A stretch of 32,287 nucleotides of DNA from contig DYLS01000049.1 of NCBI GenBank assembly GCA_020721965.1, forward strand, positions 1 to 32,287, written 5' to 3'. Positions 24,179 through 31,919 of the stretch are shown in pieces. The notes beneath the pieces are model-generated. The model did not search any database. It was not told the origin of the DNA and worked only from the letters and a program-made list of their open reading frames with translations. Numbering within the stretch: the stretch's first letter is position 1; each line of letters begins with the position of its first letter. This stretch comes from Blastopirellula marina. GTDB taxonomy: Bacteria; Planctomycetota; Planctomycetia; Pirellulales; Thermoguttaceae. Position numbers and translations under genes: made by a program.

Positions 24179-24566
24179 CGATTTTTCGGAAGAAATCTGG
24201 GGTTGGCCGCGAATCGGGATAACGTCCATTCCGATAAAAGAACAGGGACGGCTTCCTGCTTCGGGGATCGGGTAGTTTGGCCTGCGTCCCGCCCCCACGC
24301 CCAGGAGCGTCTCACCCTCCGCCATCCAGGAGCGTCGTAAGCGATTTTAATCCCCGTCGAGCCAAGAGGGAACTGGACTTTTGCAAAGTGCGCGCCCCCC
24401 ATCTGAGAGAGGGTTACAAGCTGGAGGGCTGGGCAACTCAGGAAAACAAGAAAAGCCGTTTTCATGAGAAACGGCCTTCACCCCGCCATCGCTCCAGGGA
24501 ACGTGGGGGCTTGTGGCGTCAAGTTGCAAAAGCCCAGAGGGAAGTTGCCCGTCCATCCGTTCGGGA
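24179..24566. other. Divergent intergenic region before the recombinase gene
   Basis: 388 bases between the divergent exoribonuclease and recombinase genes. The main feature is a leftward terminator-like hairpin (24444-24475). The exoribonuclease frame is open to 24325, so its true start could lie inside this region. No other gene is visible. Confidence 0.45.
24444..24475 (-). terminator. Leftward terminator-like hairpin
   Basis: Read on the minus strand, GCCGTTTC and GAAAACGGC (24475-24468 and 24463-24455, one bulged base) form a stem around a 4-nt loop. A T-rich tail TTTTCTTGTTT (24454-24444) follows. It would stop a minus-strand transcript starting inside or upstream of the recombinase gene, for which no gene is known. 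Confidence 0.55.
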
Positions 24567-25511
24567 ATGAAGATGAGCCCGCCGCGAAGAAAGCTACGCC
24601 CGCAATCCCCGTCCCTCAGCCACGTTACCCGCAATTGGGAAGAAGACTTTGCGCACTACCTTGCAGCGGAGTGCCATCTTTCCGAGAATACCGTCGCTGC
24701 CTATCGCCGCGATCTGCGCCGCTTTCTCCGCTGGTTGGGAAACCGGCTACCCGCTCAACTGGAGATTCAGGATCTGTCCGACTACGTGGCTTGGCTGCAC
24801 CAAGAAAAACTGGCCGCAGCGTCATTGGCTCGGCACGTCGTTTCGCTTCGGCTATTTCTGCGTTACCTCCAATTGGAGGGGCTGCTTACGCAGAACAAAG
24901 CGGAACTCCTCGGCGGCCCCAAACTGTGGGAACGCGTCCCGCACGTCTTAACGCCCGGCCAGGTGGAAGCGTTGCTTCAGAGTCCACGTCCCTATGACCG
25001 CTGCTATCTCCGCAATCGGGCGTTGCTGGAATTCCTATACGCCACCGGTTGCCGCGCCAGTGAGGCAGCAAACCTGCGCATGGCCGACCTTCATTTGGAG
25101 GAAGCCCATTGCGTCTGCCGTGGCAAGGGAAACAAGGAGCGCGTGGTCCCCTTGGGCAAACGAGCGATCCAGGCCTTCCATGCCTACCTCGGCGAAGAGC
25201 GTCCGCGTTTGGCGGCCGCCACCGGGGGCCATACCCCTTACGTCTTTCTCTCCTATCGCGGCAAGCGCATTCGGCGTGAACGGATTTGGGAATTGCTAAA
25301 ACTCCACGCGGTCAGATCGGGTATCCCGCCGGATATCAGCCCTCACACACTGAGACACAGCTTCGCCACGCACCTCCTAGCGGGGGGCGCGGACCTGCGA
25401 CACGTCCAAGAGATGCTGGGGCACGCGGGCATAGCCACCACACAGATCTACACCCACGTCAACTACACCCGGCTGAAAGCCGTCCACAAGCGTTTTCACC
25501 CCCGGGCGTGA
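24567..25511 (+). CDS. Tyrosine recombinase XerC/XerD
   Basis: 314 residues. Site-specific recombinase that resolves chromosome dimers at dif with its partner. The N-terminal SAM-like core-binding domain (about 23-110) precedes a catalytic domain with all six active-site residues: R163 (GCRASE), K187 (GKGNK), H260 and R263 (SPHTLRHSFATHLL), H286 (LGHAGI) and the nucleophile Y295 (TQIYTHV). It is closer to XerD in the motif details, but XerC cannot be excluded without a tree. Starts at ATG 24567 or 24573; GGGA just upstream fits the second better. Nothing nearby suggests an integron or mobile element, so this is the housekeeping type. Confidence 0.9.
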   Translation: MKMSPPRRKLRPQSPSLSHVTRNWEEDFAHYLAAECHLSENTVAAYRRDLRRFLRWLGNRLPAQLEIQDLSDYVAWLHQEKLAAASLARHVVSLRLFLRYLQLEGLLTQNKAELLGGPKLWERVPHVLTPGQVEALLQSPRPYDRCYLRNRALLEFLYATGCRASEAANLRMADLHLEEAHCVCRGKGNKERVVPLGKRAIQAFHAYLGEERPRLAAATGGHTPYVFLSYRGKRIRRERIWELLKLHAVRSGIPPDISPHTLRHSFATHLLAGGADLRHVQEMLGHAGIATTQIYTHVNYTRLKAVHKRFHPRA

Positions 25512-25547: not shown

Positions 25548-26036
25548 TTACTCCTTGCGAGGCGGGGCGAACTTGATCTTTTCCACAAGGCGGACAATGC
25601 GTCCGTCGGGTGCGAAATAGCCCGAGACGGCCGTGATCGCCTTCATCACGTTTTCGTAGTTGAGATCGTAGTCGCAATCGAATTCCACCTCGGCGTCGCC
25701 GGCGCCGCTCGGACCGGCCTGGTCGCCGACCAAAAGGCGGATCTGTTGGCGCAGATCCTCGAAGCTCCCCAATCGTCGCTCGGACAAATAGATGCCCGCC
25801 AGTCGCCCTCCCGCCGCCGCGGTCAAGCGGACCTTGATCGGTGGCAATTGGGCGTCGCTGGGCACGCCCGCGCTTGGGGCGGCTAGCGGCATTTTGATGT
25901 AAAAATCCCCTTCCGGCGATACGATCTTGAACGTCATGATGAAGAACGTCAAGAGCTGGAACACGACGTCAATCATGGGCGTCATCATCAGCTCGATTTT
26001 GTCGCCTGATCGGGTACCCGAGCCGCGAAACTTCAT
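25548..26036 (-). CDS. ExbD/TolR-family biopolymer transport protein (second)
   Basis: 162 residues. One short cytoplasmic N-terminus, one membrane span (about 17-39, MMTPMIDVVFQLLTFFIMTF) and a periplasmic domain. The membrane aspartate in PMID is the proton-path residue of ExbD/TolR. It begins three bases after the stop codon of the upstream exbD-like gene (TAG-ACG-ATG), so translation is coupled. The periplasmic domain has the C-terminal YENVMKAITAVSGY helix typical of the family. Together with the preceding ExbB-like and ExbD-like proteins it would form the stator-type complex that turns proton flow into work on the envelope. Confidence 0.9.
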   Translation of the reverse strand: MKFRGSGTRSGDKIELMMTPMIDVVFQLLTFFIMTFKIVSPEGDFYIKMPLAAPSAGVPSDAQLPPIKVRLTAAAGGRLAGIYLSERRLGSFEDLRQQIRLLVGDQAGPSGAGDAEVEFDCDYDLNYENVMKAITAVSGYFAPDGRIVRLVEKIKFAPPRKE

Positions 26037-26039
26037 CGT

Positions 26040-26480
26040 CTAGGTGCTCTCTTGTTTGGCGCGCAACGTAAACTTTTCAAACCCCACCGATTGACACGTA
26101 CGTATCAGTTCCTGCACGCGTCCCGTCTTGGCATATCGATCGGCCCGGATGATGATCGTCGTATCCCGATAATCACCGCCGCGCCGCTCTACCAATTGTT
26201 TTTCCACCTGAAGAATGGGTATGATCCCATCTAGAGTGTATTCCTCCACGCCGTAAAATACCGTCCCCTTGGAAGTCATTTGCAAGGTAACGGGATAGGC
26301 TGGGGCTGTTTCGGGAGGTTTCGCAAGCTCGCTCGCCGGCAGACGAATCAACTGGTTTTGATCCCCCTCGGAAAAGTTGATCAGGATCATAAAAAAGGCG
26401 ATCAACTGAAATGTCATGTCGATCATCGGCGTCATATCGCCTTCGGCATCGGGGATCTGTCTTCCACGCCCATACCGCAT
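26040..26480 (-). CDS. ExbD/TolR-family biopolymer transport protein (first)
   Basis: 146 residues. N-terminal span about 15-36 (DMTPMIDMTFQLIAFFMILI) with the conserved aspartate in PMID. The periplasmic part ends in the family helix VQELIRTCQSVGFEKFTLRA. GAGGAG stands nine bases upstream of ATG 26480. It differs clearly from the next exbD-like gene, so the pair are paralogues that probably form a heteromeric partner set rather than a recent duplication. Confidence 0.9.
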   Translation of the reverse strand: MRYGRGRQIPDAEGDMTPMIDMTFQLIAFFMILINFSEGDQNQLIRLPASELAKPPETAPAYPVTLQMTSKGTVFYGVEEYTLDGIIPILQVEKQLVERRGGDYRDTTIIIRADRYAKTGRVQELIRTCQSVGFEKFTLRAKQEST

Positions 26481-26573
26481 TCGTGTCCACTCCTCAAGCC
26501 AGCAATCTTGGATAAGGCTCGCCCCCGGGGCCCGACCAACCCTCGTGACTGGAGCTCGCTTCTACCACCCTGT

Positions 26574-27422
26574 TCAGGTTTTCTTGACCCCGGCCCCGGA
26601 GAATCGCGACATCAACCCCTCGCTCACGATTCCGACCTCGAGAACCAGGCGTGCGATGCGATTGCGGAGGAAACCGTAGATAATGATGGCGGGAATAGCA
26701 ATGATCAGCCCCACCAACGTCGTGATGAGTGCGGTGGAAATACCGGCCGCCAGCTCAGACGGCTTAGGCGTGGTGGCGCTATTGGCAATTACGCTGAAGG
26801 AGCGAACCATACCGTCCACCGTCCCCAACAACCCGACCATCGGGCTGACGGTGCCGATCAGTCCGATATAGCTCAGCCGGTGTTCCATCCGCATGGCCTG
26901 CTCCTCGCCGACCTCCTGCATGGCCTCCACCGCCTGGGCATAACCGGACGAAAGTTTCGCCAATCCGGCAGACAATACCTGCCCCAAAAACGACTCATCG
27001 TTCTTGGCCAGTTCGTAGGCCTCCTGGTAGCGTTTCTCATTGAAATGGGCCTCAAAGCCGTCAATGAGCGAAGAGGGAATCACGCTTTCGCGGCGACAAC
27101 CGACCAGATTCATCACCAGGAGAGCCACGAACGAGAATGATAGGGCAAAAAAGGCCACGGTGTACGTCCATCCCAAGGACTCGAAGAACCAACGCAAGAC
27201 GGACTTCTCTTGGGGTTGGGGAGCTTCCGTGGCTGCGGGAGCAGAACCCTCATCGGCAGCCGGGAGCGTGTCGTCGGTAGCCGGCTCTTCCGCGTGAACC
27301 AGCGTCCCATAACTCGATGCCCACCACGGCAATCCACCGAGCATTACCAAGAACATTGCGATAGAAGCCGCTACCGATCCGCTCCAGTCCGATAACCAAG
27401 TTGACAAGTAGCCACGCCGCAT
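26574..27422 (-). CDS. MotA/TolQ/ExbB proton-channel protein with signal peptide
   Basis: 282 residues. The start ATG 27422 is chosen because GGGAGG lies five bases upstream; an in-frame ATG at 27446 adds eight unsupported residues. The N-terminus has a signal-like hydrophobic segment (about 17-33) and an Ala/Pro/Glu-rich periplasmic linker to about 75. Three family spans follow: WTYTVAFFALSFSFVALLVM, then YIGLIGTVSPMVGLLGTVDGM, then ISTALITTLVGLIIAIPAIII. Classic ExbB/TolQ lacks the leading signal and linker, so this is the extended ExbB variety. It sits directly upstream of two exbD-like genes and downstream of two TPR protein genes. Confidence 0.9.
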   Translation of the reverse strand: MRRGYLSTWLSDWSGSVAASIAMFLVMLGGLPWWASSYGTLVHAEEPATDDTLPAADEGSAPAATEAPQPQEKSVLRWFFESLGWTYTVAFFALSFSFVALLVMNLVGCRRESVIPSSLIDGFEAHFNEKRYQEAYELAKNDESFLGQVLSAGLAKLSSGYAQAVEAMQEVGEEQAMRMEHRLSYIGLIGTVSPMVGLLGTVDGMVRSFSVIANSATTPKPSELAAGISTALITTLVGLIIAIPAIIIYGFLRNRIARLVLEVGIVSEGLMSRFSGAGVKKT

Positions 27423-27489
27423 GGAAACCTCCCATCTGAAGGCCAAGACTGCTAGACTAGCTCCAAAACTCTGTTCCGCGATATGGCCT

Positions 27490-27527
27490 CCCCTCTGAAT
27501 CTCTGTTGATTAACAGCGTGAGAGGGG
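27490..27527. other. Nested stem-loop between the TPR and exbB-like genes
   Basis: CCCCTCT (27490-27496) pairs with AGAGGGG (27521-27527), and inside it CTGTT (27503-27507) pairs with AACAG (27512-27516) around GATT. No T-run follows on the minus strand. It may be an mRNA processing or stability element that sets the ratio of TPR proteins to motor proteins. Confidence 0.5.
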
Positions 27528-27585
27528 CCTAGCCGTCTTCCCAGCTCGCGCATCCGCTTGCGCCGAATCGCGACTCGAAATTTTT

Positions 27586-27615
27586 AATATACCCTCCCGA
27601 CAAGGCGGTCGTAAA
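27586..27615 (-). promoter_or_regulatory. Possible promoter of the exbB-exbD-exbD genes
   Basis: On the minus strand TTTACG (27615-27610), an 18-base spacer, then TATATT (27591-27586). Hexamers match the consensus at four and five positions. If real, the motor genes have a start of their own besides read-through from the TPR genes. Confidence 0.4.
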
Positions 27616-27699
27616 CTGCCAACCTGAGACTTTCGGAACAACCTCATCAGGCGTGGTTTTCTGACAAGGCCGGCGGGCCTCGGGGACCGCATTCTGATG

Positions 27700-28719
27700 T
27701 TACCCGCCCGACATTTCCACCTTGTACTGCTCCTTCAGGACATCCACCGCCTCCGCCGCCCGTTCAGGGTGTTGCAGTTGCGGCCACAATTCTGCGAGAT
27801 TCCGGAGCGCTTCGATATGGGATGGGGCATGATTGAAGTACAAGAGATCCACATGCAGGAAGGCGATCACCGCATCCTCCAGCTTGCCGGCCTTTCGATA
27901 CGCCGCCCCCAAGGCCCCATACAAACGCCCCATGATCTCCGCATTTTCCGTGAGGTCCGGGCGATCCAGGATGGGCTGCACCATCGCAATCGCTTGATCG
28001 GTCTCGCCCTTTTCCACGAGACATCGCGCCTTGCCGATGGTAGCCAGCAATTTGGGCGTATCATCGCCGCTCAAGGAAATAGCGAAGGCGCGATCGAAAG
28101 CCGCCTCTGCTTCCGAGTATTTGCCCGCCGCGATGTACGCCCACCCCGTCCGCTGCAATCCTTCAATCTTATAGTCTGGCCAAGGGGCGTCGGCAATCTT
28201 GCCGTAATACTCAATCGCTTTATCGTAGTTTTTCAAGGCGACCAGAAGTTCAGCGATCATCCGGCAGGCATCCCAATAGTGATAGCTATTGGGGCTAGCG
28301 GCGAGAAAATTCACCAAGGCCCCACCTGCCTCTTGGGCCGATCCCGTGCCCGCCAAGGCGATCTTCCCCCGGCAATACGCGCGATAGAAGTCGACATCCT
28401 GCGATACTTCCGGGCGGCGTAGGCTTTCCGGCGGAATTCGGTCGAGAGCGGTAAGCGCGTCCTCATAACGCGAGGTCTCAACATTCGAGCGAGCTGTAGC
28501 CAACGCAGCCGGCTCTCCGTCGTACGTGATTCGCAGAATCTGATTGACTGGCACGGCTTTCGGCCCGGCGGCAATCTCAACCGTCACCTCTTGCGGGGAC
28601 ATCTGCGTGATCCGCCCCCGGACTTGTTCGGAAGACGTAGCGACTGTATCCACCGCCCAAGCCGTCGTTTGACATAGGCACGCGATCGCCACCGCCAATC
28701 CTGAACCGTTGATCCTCAT
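27700..28719 (-). CDS. Secreted tetratricopeptide-repeat protein
   Basis: 339 residues from ATG 28719, chosen because GGGAG lies nine bases upstream and a clean signal peptide begins there (about 1-22, cut near AWA). The longer frame from 28764 adds a basic leader that does not look natural. A small beta domain (about 30-70) is followed by TPR-like helical repeats, for example YDKAIEYYGKIADA, KYSEAEAAFDRAFA and KLEDAVIAFLHVDL. It would be a periplasmic scaffold. The gene lies 116 bases after the 1027-residue TPR gene and upstream of the exbB-like gene, all on one strand. Confidence 0.82.
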   Translation of the reverse strand: MRINGSGLAVAIACLCQTTAWAVDTVATSSEQVRGRITQMSPQEVTVEIAAGPKAVPVNQILRITYDGEPAALATARSNVETSRYEDALTALDRIPPESLRRPEVSQDVDFYRAYCRGKIALAGTGSAQEAGGALVNFLAASPNSYHYWDACRMIAELLVALKNYDKAIEYYGKIADAPWPDYKIEGLQRTGWAYIAAGKYSEAEAAFDRAFAISLSGDDTPKLLATIGKARCLVEKGETDQAIAMVQPILDRPDLTENAEIMGRLYGALGAAYRKAGKLEDAVIAFLHVDLLYFNHAPSHIEALRNLAELWPQLQHPERAAEAVDVLKEQYKVEMSGG

Positions 28720-28835
28720 ATTACCGATCTCCCTGGTTCTTCTCTTCCGCTTGTTCCGTTTCACCAGCCATCATGGCCAAGCCCTGGTCTTCCGGCTGGG
28801 CTTCCCTCACCACGCACTCCCACGACTCAGCCCCG

Positions 28836-31800
28836 CTAAGACCGCCTCGCAGTCGCCTCTTTTGGTTTGCTTTCCTCCCAAGCCTTCAGACCTTGGGGCG
28901 TTCTCTCACCTCCAAGTTGCTGAATCGTTCTCACTAGCTTATCGTACTTGTCGTACCAATCCTTTCCACCCAGTGACGGATAGAGCAAATAGGTACGACG
29001 CACGTCCAATAACGCCTCATCGAGCAGGCGGGAACGCTCCTCTCCGGATTTCTTCTGCGCCAATTTGAGGCGACACAAAGCCATGTTATAGCGGGCTTCG
29101 TGGAAGATATCCTCGAATTTTTGGTAGGACCCGGCCACCCGCTTGGCGATGCCGCCCCAGCCCCAGATCAGGTAACGCCCACCCTTTTCGTATCCTCCGC
29201 GAATCGCGTTGAGATAGTAGTCCTCTTTGCCCGGCATTTCAGCCCACTCCTGGTAAATCGTTGCCGCTTCGATTTGGGCGTCGATGCGAGTTTCCTTGCC
29301 CAGTTTATCAATCACGTAGATCACCACTTCCAAAGCTTTATCGTAGCGCCTTAGCCCACGCAAGACCCTGGACAACCTGACACGAAGGAAGATCGGGGCG
29401 TCTTCGGGGGCAAAACCCGCCTCTTGTTCGCTCCGCTTGACGAGTGTCACGTAATTGCCCAACGCCTCTTTGTAGTATTCCGCGGCCTTTGCTGGAACCT
29501 CGGGGCCTCCGGGATCCAGCCCCTTGCCAAGGCTGTAATAGGTTTCAGCCACCCAGTTCAGCGACCGAAAATCGACGCCCTGAGCCCGTTCTGAAATTCG
29601 CCCCAGCAGCGTCGTGAAACCCGACAGCACCGTCTCCACCTGCTCGGTTTTGTTTTCACCACGGAGCTGCTGGAGTTGCTGTTCGAGTTGGCGTCCCAGA
29701 CTGACATAGACGGCCGTCAAGTTCTTACCGCCGCCCTCCACGTCTCCCGCCGTAACCAAGGTCTCCAGGCGGTCCAAATACTGCATCGCCTCATCGACTT
29801 TTTGCGCCATCACGCTGGCCCGCAGCGCGAGTTTCAATACTTCCTCTTGAAACGATTGCCGCTCGACCACCGGGTTTTGGCGATCCATCAAAGTGAGCGG
29901 TCCAATGGATTCGTCGCGCAGCAACTCGATGGTTTTGCCGGGTCCTCCCAGCGTCAAATAAGCCTGAGCCAAGAGAAGAGCGGAATACTCCACGAAATAA
30001 TCCGCAGCTTGGCCACCGCGCACCGCCGTTCGAACGATTTCCAAACCCTTTTCCAAGCGACTTCGCGCCTCATCTCGCAGAGCGGTCAATTGATCGGGGG
30101 AGAGTGACGTGTTACTATCCGCTACGGCTTTCACGTAGTTCGCCCACAGCACCTGTCCCAACCTCAACTCCAATCGGCTCCGCCCCCAAGATTGATCTGG
30201 CAACTTGTCTAGATAAGCCTTGGCCTCGTCTAAAAGCCCCAAATCGACGAGGGAATCCATGACCGCTAAGGCCGCTTCAGCCGCTTCGCTTTGCCCCGGC
30301 CAGCGTTGGATGATCTGATCCGCCAATCGCTGCATCCACTCTACTGCCCATTCACCTTTCCCCCCGTGGTTGATGGTATCAAGAAAGAGCTTCCGGACCG
30401 CCTTGACTGCCACCTCGCCGGCCTTATTTACCCCAGCCGCTTGCGGATAGCGACGAACCAAGAACTCCCCCAAGACAGCACATTCTTCCAATCGCCCCGC
30501 ATCCCAGAGAAGATAGACCAATTTGAAGCGGATGGCATTCACCTGATCCATGGCGTCGAGTGGCGCCAATCGCAGAGCCGTCCGGTATAGTTTAATAGCG
30601 GCATCTCTCGCCGAGTCCGCCTCCTGCCGGGCGGCGGCATCACCGTCTCCTTGCTGCAAGCGATTCATGGCGGCAAGGAACTGGTCCCAAGCCATGTCGC
30701 CACGTTCCACCGCGTCCGTAAAACTCTGGACTGGCCCCTCCGCCTTGATCTCGCCGGTCAGGTTGGCCAAGGCGGATTGGGCGGCACCACGATCGGAATT
30801 AGGCAATCGCGCTACGACCTCCAAGAATCGTCGCGCCGTGGCTTGCAATTGCCGCGCCAACCGGGCGTCATTGCCCTTTTCCGCCGCTTCCGCCGCCGAC
30901 ACAGCCGCCATTCCCGCCAGGAATTGAAGCCGCAAGCCCGTCTCGCTGTTACGGATGTTGGCCTGTGTCACATCGAACCATTGCTCTGCACGCGACACAA
31001 TCGCTTGATGATTGCCCTGCTTGCCGAGGATCTCGCAAAGCCGGGCTAGAGCCTCTGTACGCAGAGGCTGCGTTGCCGGGTCCTCGGCCGGGAGCGTCAA
31101 GGTCTCTTCGAATATGGTGCTGGCCTCTTTGTCTTTCCCTAACTCTTGAAGGCACACGCCTTGCTGTAGCCGCGCCACCAATCCTGCCCCGTAATCGGCA
31201 TACTTTTCGTATATTTTGCCGTATTCGTCAGCGGCCTCCTGCAATATCTTGTTTCGGGTCGCATCCCCTTTCGGATACGATTGTGCGAGCTGGTAGTTGG
31301 CGCCAACTGTGTACAACCTCGCCCTGAGATAGTCTCGATAAGCAGCTTCCCTCTCACGCCCTTCTCGGGAATTGCTATCGACCACCCGCCCTTGAAAGGT
31401 CTCTGCCCGCTTGCGCGCAGTGTCCAGAAATACGGCAAACGACTTTTGCGCCTCTTGGATCGCCGCGCGGGCCTCCTCACGCAACCGCGTGGCCTCCGCT
31501 TCCGGCTTACCTTCGGCCGAAGCAAGCGTGGTCTTGGCGCGTTCGACCAAAACCTGCGCCAACTGCGCATTCGCATCTCCCACCAACGCATGCTGGGGGT
31601 GCTCTTGCACGAATTTTTTCAACCGAGCCACGGCCTGCGTGAGGTACTGCTCGCGAGTCAGGGCTACGCGAGAATGAGCCGCCGCGAGAATCCAAGTCGA
31701 ACCCGCCTGATAATCGACCTCTTCCTTCAGATCCGCTGGGCAGGTGGGATCATTGGGCAGCCTGTCGATATAATCCACAGCGGTGTCGAAATAGCCGCGA

Positions 31801-31919
31801 TCCCGCAAGGCGTCGAGAAACTTCCGGTGGTCATTCGCCGCCCAGACAGCAGGTAAACAGACCGACCATACTCCCGCGGCCAACACGATTAGCCCAATAG
31901 GCCGGAGCGAACCTCTCAT
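28836..31919 (-). CDS. Large secreted tetratricopeptide-repeat protein
   Basis: 1027 residues. A signal peptide (about 1-27, ending VWA-A) shows export. The rest is almost entirely helical with TPR-type repeats, e.g. AAYRDYLRARLYTVGANYQLAQ, CLQELGKDKEASTIFEETL, ARLEKGLEIVRTAV and RYDKALEVVIYVIDKL. There is no enzyme motif. GGAG lies nine bases upstream of ATG 31919, in a context (GGAGATCGG) nearly identical to that of the next TPR gene. It heads the five-gene set with the smaller TPR protein and the ExbB/ExbD/ExbD proteins and is a likely periplasmic partner of that motor. No homolog with known function can be named from sequence alone. Confidence 0.85.
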   Translation of the reverse strand: MRGSLRPIGLIVLAAGVWSVCLPAVWAANDHRKFLDALRDRGYFDTAVDYIDRLPNDPTCPADLKEEVDYQAGSTWILAAAHSRVALTREQYLTQAVARLKKFVQEHPQHALVGDANAQLAQVLVERAKTTLASAEGKPEAEATRLREEARAAIQEAQKSFAVFLDTARKRAETFQGRVVDSNSREGREREAAYRDYLRARLYTVGANYQLAQSYPKGDATRNKILQEAADEYGKIYEKYADYGAGLVARLQQGVCLQELGKDKEASTIFEETLTLPAEDPATQPLRTEALARLCEILGKQGNHQAIVSRAEQWFDVTQANIRNSETGLRLQFLAGMAAVSAAEAAEKGNDARLARQLQATARRFLEVVARLPNSDRGAAQSALANLTGEIKAEGPVQSFTDAVERGDMAWDQFLAAMNRLQQGDGDAAARQEADSARDAAIKLYRTALRLAPLDAMDQVNAIRFKLVYLLWDAGRLEECAVLGEFLVRRYPQAAGVNKAGEVAVKAVRKLFLDTINHGGKGEWAVEWMQRLADQIIQRWPGQSEAAEAALAVMDSLVDLGLLDEAKAYLDKLPDQSWGRSRLELRLGQVLWANYVKAVADSNTSLSPDQLTALRDEARSRLEKGLEIVRTAVRGGQAADYFVEYSALLLAQAYLTLGGPGKTIELLRDESIGPLTLMDRQNPVVERQSFQEEVLKLALRASVMAQKVDEAMQYLDRLETLVTAGDVEGGGKNLTAVYVSLGRQLEQQLQQLRGENKTEQVETVLSGFTTLLGRISERAQGVDFRSLNWVAETYYSLGKGLDPGGPEVPAKAAEYYKEALGNYVTLVKRSEQEAGFAPEDAPIFLRVRLSRVLRGLRRYDKALEVVIYVIDKLGKETRIDAQIEAATIYQEWAEMPGKEDYYLNAIRGGYEKGGRYLIWGWGGIAKRVAGSYQKFEDIFHEARYNMALCRLKLAQKKSGEERSRLLDEALLDVRRTYLLYPSLGGKDWYDKYDKLVRTIQQLGGERTPQGLKAWEESKPKEATARRS

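Follow-up and report, generated by a model that had tools for sequence, protein, structure and literature searches.

A conserved TPR-ExbB-ExbD-ExbD gene module of Blastopirellula marina and its possible association with a secretin complex

Motors of the ExbB/ExbD (ExbBD) type use a flow of ions to move the periplasmic domains of ExbD. Several described systems come close to the locus treated here, a five-gene module of Blastopirellula marina (assembly GCA_020721965.1, contig DYLS01000049.1) that encodes two tetratricopeptide repeat (TPR) proteins, TPR1 and TPR2, an ExbB-type channel and two ExbD-type proteins, ExbD1 and ExbD2. The MotAB stators of Campylobacter are scaffolded and positioned by two TPR proteins, PflA, which also has a beta domain, and PflB (PMC12222027, excerpt). 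In Planctomycetes-Verrucomicrobia-Chlamydiae (PVC) bacteria, TPR, tolQ-like, paired tolR-like and von Willebrand factor A (vWA) genes occur together (PMC12204202, 2025, excerpt). The Akkermansia secretin Amuc_1098 has N-terminal TPRs (PMC4960237, excerpt).

The window analysed is one entire contig (32287 bases) from a draft genome of 4.95 Mb. Five open reading frames (ORFs) at 25548-31919 were all on the minus strand, in the order TPR1-TPR2-ExbB-ExbD1-ExbD2:

28836..31919, minus strand: TPR1, 1027 amino acids (aa), putatively secreted alpha-solenoid (degenerate TPR) protein
27700..28764, minus strand: TPR2, 354 aa from GTG 28764 or 339 aa from ATG 28719; predicted TPR solenoid preceded by an N-terminal domain of five beta strands
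27447..27699: TPR2-ExbB gap, intergenic stretch
26574..27446, minus strand: ExbB/TolQ-type channel, with a signal-like segment at the N-terminus and extended ahead of the first transmembrane (TM) segment, TM1
26040..26480, minus strand: ExbD1, ExbD/TolR family
25548..26036, minus strand: ExbD2, ExbD/TolR family, distinct from ExbD1

Starts were ambiguous for TPR2 (the two codons given above) and for ExbB (TTG 27446 or ATG 27422). Only about 370 bp of contig remain upstream of TPR1, and the gene before it is outside view. Among the matches listed, the closest named ExbD1 was that of Thermogutta sp. MAG-77 (85% identity).

Gene order was conserved far beyond chance. A scan with the ExbD1 alignment gave 585 pattern matches, of which 535 were confirmed and the best 80, an uneven sample of the closest relatives, were kept as named loci; the five genes were complete, in order and on one strand in 67 of these 80, a count on which chance adjacency was rejected. 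In 10/80 no more than 3.5 kb separated the locus start from the first gene found, and three (L146, L150 and L203) had room upstream but no TPR genes. A strong TPR2 was found elsewhere in the genome for all five motor-only loci (these three, together with L154 and L201 from the 10), 7 Mb away on the same chromosome for L203 and on a different contig for the others; the positive controls L190 and L172 also matched in this search. Around TPR1 matches, all five genes were in order in 28/61 regions, window included, many of the 61 being cut by contig ends or holding TPR1 paralogues. The named-loci and relatives samples overlap, and several contigs are identical. A check on conservation of gene order across Planctomycetota had been proposed with the initial annotation.

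Matches to TPR1 (E<=1e-3) were present in 57/60 relatives, some of them being paralogues that had neither TPR2 nor motor beside them, in part at contig ends (L064, L082-L088, L093-L096). Matches to TPR2 (E<=1e-20) were present in 56/60 and matches to ExbB (E<=1e-60) in 51/60, with weak or cut ExbB matches in G035 (208 bits) and G029 (213 bits). Among 244 genomes sampled from the phylum, strong TPR1 and TPR2 matches occurred in 24/24 of the in-class genomes listed and a strong ExbB match in 23/24; G151 was the one without it, and G136 had it on another contig. Outside the class, TPR2 was matched (E<=1e-20) in 42 listed genomes, 29 of which had it directly before ExbB on one strand. The adjacency extended to identities with the window protein as low as 22% for TPR1 and 39% for ExbB.

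The motor proteins scored above curated cut-offs: ExbB against PF01618 (99.5 bits; cut-off 22.9), ExbD1 and ExbD2 against PF02472 (65 and 57.2 bits; cut-off 25.4). TM1, TM3 and the signal-like segment of ExbB were seen by hydropathy and TM2 by alignment only; the protein could be aligned to solved TolQ and ExbB over TM2-TM3. Residues T201 and T235 of ExbB were invariant (31/31 sequences) and aligned with T148 and T181 of E. coli ExbB, but the position of E. coli E176 held T (21), K (4), M (4) or Q (2) in the same 31 sequences; these three E. coli residues we take to be of importance. The TM aspartates D21 of ExbD1 (29/29) and D23 of ExbD2 (28/28) both aligned with D25 of E. coli ExbD. ExbD1 and ExbD2 are two separate, co-conserved families, which suggests that they form a heterodimer. 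The module thus shares with TolQ/TolR and ExbB/ExbD motors the two protein families, the pore threonines and the ExbD aspartate; it differs from them in having two distinct ExbD genes, an N-terminal signal and extension on ExbB and TPR partners, with no TonB or TolA found.

Several TPR models matched TPR2 above their cut-offs, whereas none did for TPR1 (TPR_1, 9.8 bits). The AlphaFold2 model of TPR1 was a single long alpha-solenoid (mean pLDDT 91.9, pTM 0.63), and the predicted structure of TPR2 comprised a five-stranded beta domain and a TPR solenoid (mean pLDDT 94.3). Profile alignment of the window TPR1 family with the out-of-class TPR1 proteins gave an hhalign E of 3.3e-55 over 878 columns, and with a second group 5.9e-14 over 819 columns, scores that repeats can inflate. 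The N-terminal hydrophobic stretch of TPR1 was signal-peptide-like in the hydropathy scan; that of TPR2 was below the threshold of the scan, and its fit to a signal peptide was judged by eye. A hydrophobic segment past residue 50 occurred in only 1/97 aligned rows of the TPR proteins. The lipobox pattern was found in 0/50 TPR2 rows and, in loose form, in 5/47 TPR1 rows, which by eye resemble ordinary signal peptides. Both proteins are most likely soluble and periplasmic, and a scaffold role would therefore be likelier than direct substitution for TonB.

Structure searches with both TPR models matched many unrelated TPR proteins and gave no telling functional match. PflA was among the matches of both, weakly (TM-scores 0.21-0.51). 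As with PflA/PflB (PMC12222027, excerpt), the module has a putative periplasmic TPR pair, one member with an N-terminal beta domain, beside a motor, that of PflA/PflB being of the MotAB family; unlike it, the motor here is of the ExbBD type, no sequence relationship was seen, and the resemblance is of fold only.

No TonB, TolA, TolB or Pal was called among the 17 window ORFs scanned, the side upstream of TPR1 being outside the contig. TonB_C (PF03544, E<=0.01) had no match in the own genome or the genus (G000-G003), a search that could miss a divergent TonB; TolB and Pal were not searched genome-wide. The initial annotation had described two secreted TPR proteins, an ExbB-type channel with its own signal peptide and two distinct ExbD-type proteins, in that order on one strand, with none of those four Tol or Ton proteins in the window. 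That description agrees with the ORFs and family matches, with TPR2 recognised by TPR models, TPR1 by its solenoid model and the profile alignment with the TPR protein in the same place in other classes, and the ExbB signal peptide by an N-terminal hydrophobic stretch (hydropathy scan, no dedicated predictor). It had also suggested an ion-driven machine in which TPR proteins replace TonB/TolA transmission. Conservation supported motor and TPR genes as a unit; replacement of the transmission was not borne out, as both TPR proteins look soluble and the TPR genes can occur without the motor.

Outside the class, the homologous module was frequently flanked by secretin-like genes. Loci (n = 27) had been picked from a longer list by TPR1, TPR2 or ExbB matches, before the secretins were noticed; a secretin-like gene was upstream in 22/27, downstream in 17/27 and on either side in 23/27. 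Secretins were called with a profile seeded on four Pfam-confirmed genes; Pfam or NCBIfam confirmed a total of six. In 9 out-of-class loci, one gene cluster was represented three positions upstream of the first secretin, and the 3 members scanned were PilM-like, scoring over the cut-off for PF11104 and well below it for the Amuc_1101-type model. Two bitopic proteins were encoded between PilM and the secretin, one of them called PilO-like from size and topology only. Where all genes were seen, the typical order was PilM - PilO-like - third protein - secretin - TPR1 - TPR2 - ExbB - ExbD1 - ExbD2 - secretin. A MoxR/DUF58/Bat-type operon had been considered as partner on account of a weak bpX0 match of TPR1 (17.1 bits; cut-off 27) and the sizes of upstream genes out of class, and was rejected when Pfam showed secretins and PilM.

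Within the order of the window, a secretin match of the module-flanking family (at least 196 bits) was found in 49/60 relatives and in the own genome (contig C53). The 17 Pirellulales secretins formed one group (support 0.89) that joined the module-adjacent secretin of the out-of-class locus L243 (support 1.0), in a tree of C-terminal parts only in which SEC1 and SEC2 paralogues were mixed. PilM preceded the secretin in 9/17 secretin-centred regions, 8 of them with two same-strand proteins between, a rate biased by the choice of the 20 underlying regions partly for PilM and secretin matches on one contig. The own genome had a second pair of PilM and secretin matches together on contig C244, probably an ordinary type IV pilus locus.

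The secretin and PilM neighbourhood of homologous modules in other classes is new, in that it was not found in print: the open-access papers searched gave no ExbBD-secretin link in planctomycetes and no ExbBD motor beside Amuc_1098- or Amuc_1101-type genes. It recalls the Akkermansia Amuc_1098 secretin (NF042912) and the PilM-like Amuc_1101 (NF045709), since TPR-bearing secretins and PilM-like genes flank the module in other classes; scores were, however, far below the cut-offs of NF042912 and NF045709, and such genes are not adjacent to the module in the window.

The reading tentatively preferred, judged somewhat less probable than its negation, is a proton-motive-force (pmf) motor held by a TPR scaffold and docked to a secretin-type trans-envelope complex. 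The inner-membrane motor would probably consist of ExbB5 with an ExbD1:ExbD2 heterodimer, and TPR1 and TPR2 would be periplasmic scaffolds docking it, via the ExbD periplasmic domains, to a larger complex, a division of labour modelled on PflA/PflB holding MotAB stators (PMC12222027, excerpt). The likeliest partner would be a secretin complex of planctomycetes that has a PilM/PilO-like platform in the inner membrane, because its genes flank the homologous module out of class and the same families occur elsewhere in genomes of the window's order. The task of the machine may be gating of an outer-membrane pore, fibre handling, or movement or uptake of macromolecules. We infer the heterodimer, the docking, the secretin partnership and the task; the genes, their conservation, the intact motor residues, the lack of a TonB_C match and the neighbourhood in other classes are observed.

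Several results weigh against this reading. The secretin link draws solely on gene neighbourhood, and no secretin was found in 4/27 out-of-class loci (L220, which is cut upstream, L224, L240 and L244). Within the window's order, secretin and TPR1 were on different contigs or, where they shared one, at least 0.5 Mb apart; in the own genome, PilM (C204) and the secretin (C53) were on different contigs. In one relative, G031 (L294:1-10476), PilM was the third gene beyond ExbD2 and on its strand, a proximity that may be coincidental; the two intervening genes were kinase-like and oxidoreductase-like and, judged by eye and in a small local search, unrelated. The TPR folds match many unrelated proteins, and the match to PflA is weak. 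TPR2 was kept in 7/9 relatives without an ExbB match (G005, G008, G021, G022, G052, G053 and G054) and in 49/51 with one, so that co-occurrence in the 60 relatives hardly discriminates. In G008, G053 and G054, TPR1 was beside TPR2 without the motor; in G054 (L053) and G053 (L074), a XerD gene followed TPR2 straight away, as would be left by a deletion of the motor trio.

If the scaffolded motor does serve a secretin complex, ExbBD motors would have a further mode of coupling to the outer membrane that uses neither TonB nor TolA. The periplasm of planctomycetes is wide, and their outer membrane bears crateriform structures, some joined to the inner membrane; those of Planctopirus limnophila connect both membranes, and dextran uptake by Gemmata obscuriglobus, the machinery of which is uncharacterised, was not seen in cells treated with carbonyl cyanide m-chlorophenyl hydrazone (CCCP) (PMC5394234, excerpt). 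A machine widespread in Planctomycetota, in which a TPR-held ExbBD motor powers a secretin pore that has a PilM/PilO-like platform and which could account for uncoupler-sensitive macromolecule uptake via crateriform structures, is considered improbable, and the link of dextran uptake or crateriform structures to the module is speculation. For the uptake question, a conserved pmf module that neighbours secretin- and PilM-like genes in some of the phylum supplies defined genes for deletion in a genetically tractable planctomycete. Genetic tools are available for the laboratory planctomycete Planctopirus limnophila (PMC5394234).

Among the alternatives, envelope maintenance of the Tol kind survives best and is unlikely: a TolQR-like motor would act with CpoB-like TPR helpers in outer-membrane integrity or division, the roles of TolA and Pal being taken by other proteins. 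TolQ was the best NCBIfam model for ExbB, yet its score (75.8 bits) was below the equivalog cut-off of 221. The YbgF/CpoB model matched TPR1 (E=4.3e-8) and TPR2 (E=1.4e-6), both far below the model cut-off, and CpoB (6g5s) and YbgF (2xev) were among the PDB sequence matches of TPR2, ranking after many designed and eukaryotic TPRs. The single, near-universal copy would also suit a housekeeping role. The absence of TolA, TolB and Pal calls among the 17 window ORFs scanned and the secretin and PilM-like neighbours in other classes argue against it.

That the module is a vWA force-transducer system of the published kind (PMC12204202, excerpt), its vWA transducer lost from the locus or replaced, is rather improbable. 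The gene set reported from PVC bacteria overlaps in part with the module, both having a TPR gene, a tolQ-like gene and two unlike tolR-like genes, but the window has two TPR genes and no vWA gene in view. A vWA/YfbK-like gene cluster was upstream of TPR1 in 16/61 regions, three with one ORF between, and the family matched at 288 bits or more in 19/60 relatives; the two members scanned were vWA/YfbK-like, with N-terminal repeats and one TM helix. That helix, however, was without histidine in 4/4 checked, and the S-x-x-x-H pattern of a vWA protein beside the motor was not found. Family-level matches were absent from the genus (none at E<=1e-10 in G000 and G001; only generic matches of 43-44 bits in G002 and G003), and the window's genus appears to be without the upstream vWA gene. 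On contig C60 of the own genome (L098:4711-11804), ExbB and ExbD are accompanied by a small TPR-type gene, a TPR1-like gene and a vWA protein whose TM helix carries the S-x-x-x-H pattern; this module is a better match to the description in the excerpt of PMC12204202, and the window module, though related, is a set of its own. In L051, L061 and L069, the upstream vWA-family protein kept its C-terminal part, with the vWA part eroded or divergent (alignment, by eye).

Independence of the TPR pair from the motor trio, the two lying together by happenstance, is decidedly improbable. Of the four junctions in relatives, the TPR2-ExbB gap was the longest (medians to the nearest ATG upstream: 186 bp here, 79, 45.5 and 11 bp at the others), and the module may therefore be transcribed as two units. 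The promoter and terminator scan was within chance, with 2 promoter-like matches in the region vs. 2.6 expected, the sole minus-strand one at 27615-27586. The pair and the motor were on different contigs in G033 and G024, and the retention of TPR2 in most relatives lacking a motor match points the same way. TPR1 and TPR2 themselves were on separate contigs in five genomes (G005, G012, G021, G022 and G031), the TPR1 match being weak and apart from TPR2 in G005, G021 and G022. Against independence stands the adjacency throughout the class and in much of the phylum sample, down to the low identities given above. The initial annotation had held that unconserved order, or independence of the TPR and motor genes, would count against its module: the order was conserved, which favours a unit, and the motor-less relatives with TPR2 count against a tight one.

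An ordinary TonB motor with TonB encoded elsewhere, exbBD genes being often unlinked from tonB, is highly improbable and was rejected, since the genus had no TonB_C match and only 15/60 relatives had one, vs. 51/60 with ExbB.

A XerD gene lies on the opposite strand at 24513-25511, convergent with the module, and a XerD-type recombinase was directly after ExbD2 in 9/61 TPR1-centred regions, window included. A third ExbD-type gene followed ExbD2 in L077, L078 and L208. The TPR1 paralogues without TPR2 or motor in L082, L083, L084 and L087 were preceded by members of one protein cluster, squalene-cyclase-like by eye. Contig C69 of the own genome (L099:3123-12077) encodes a 1055-aa TPR protein, ExbB, ExbD and a 1312-aa protein that is squalene-hopene-cyclase-like (below cut-off). 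Contigs C175 and C196 (L101 and L102) each have a MotA-like gene followed by two genes with TM-helix-like N-termini, a different motor type.

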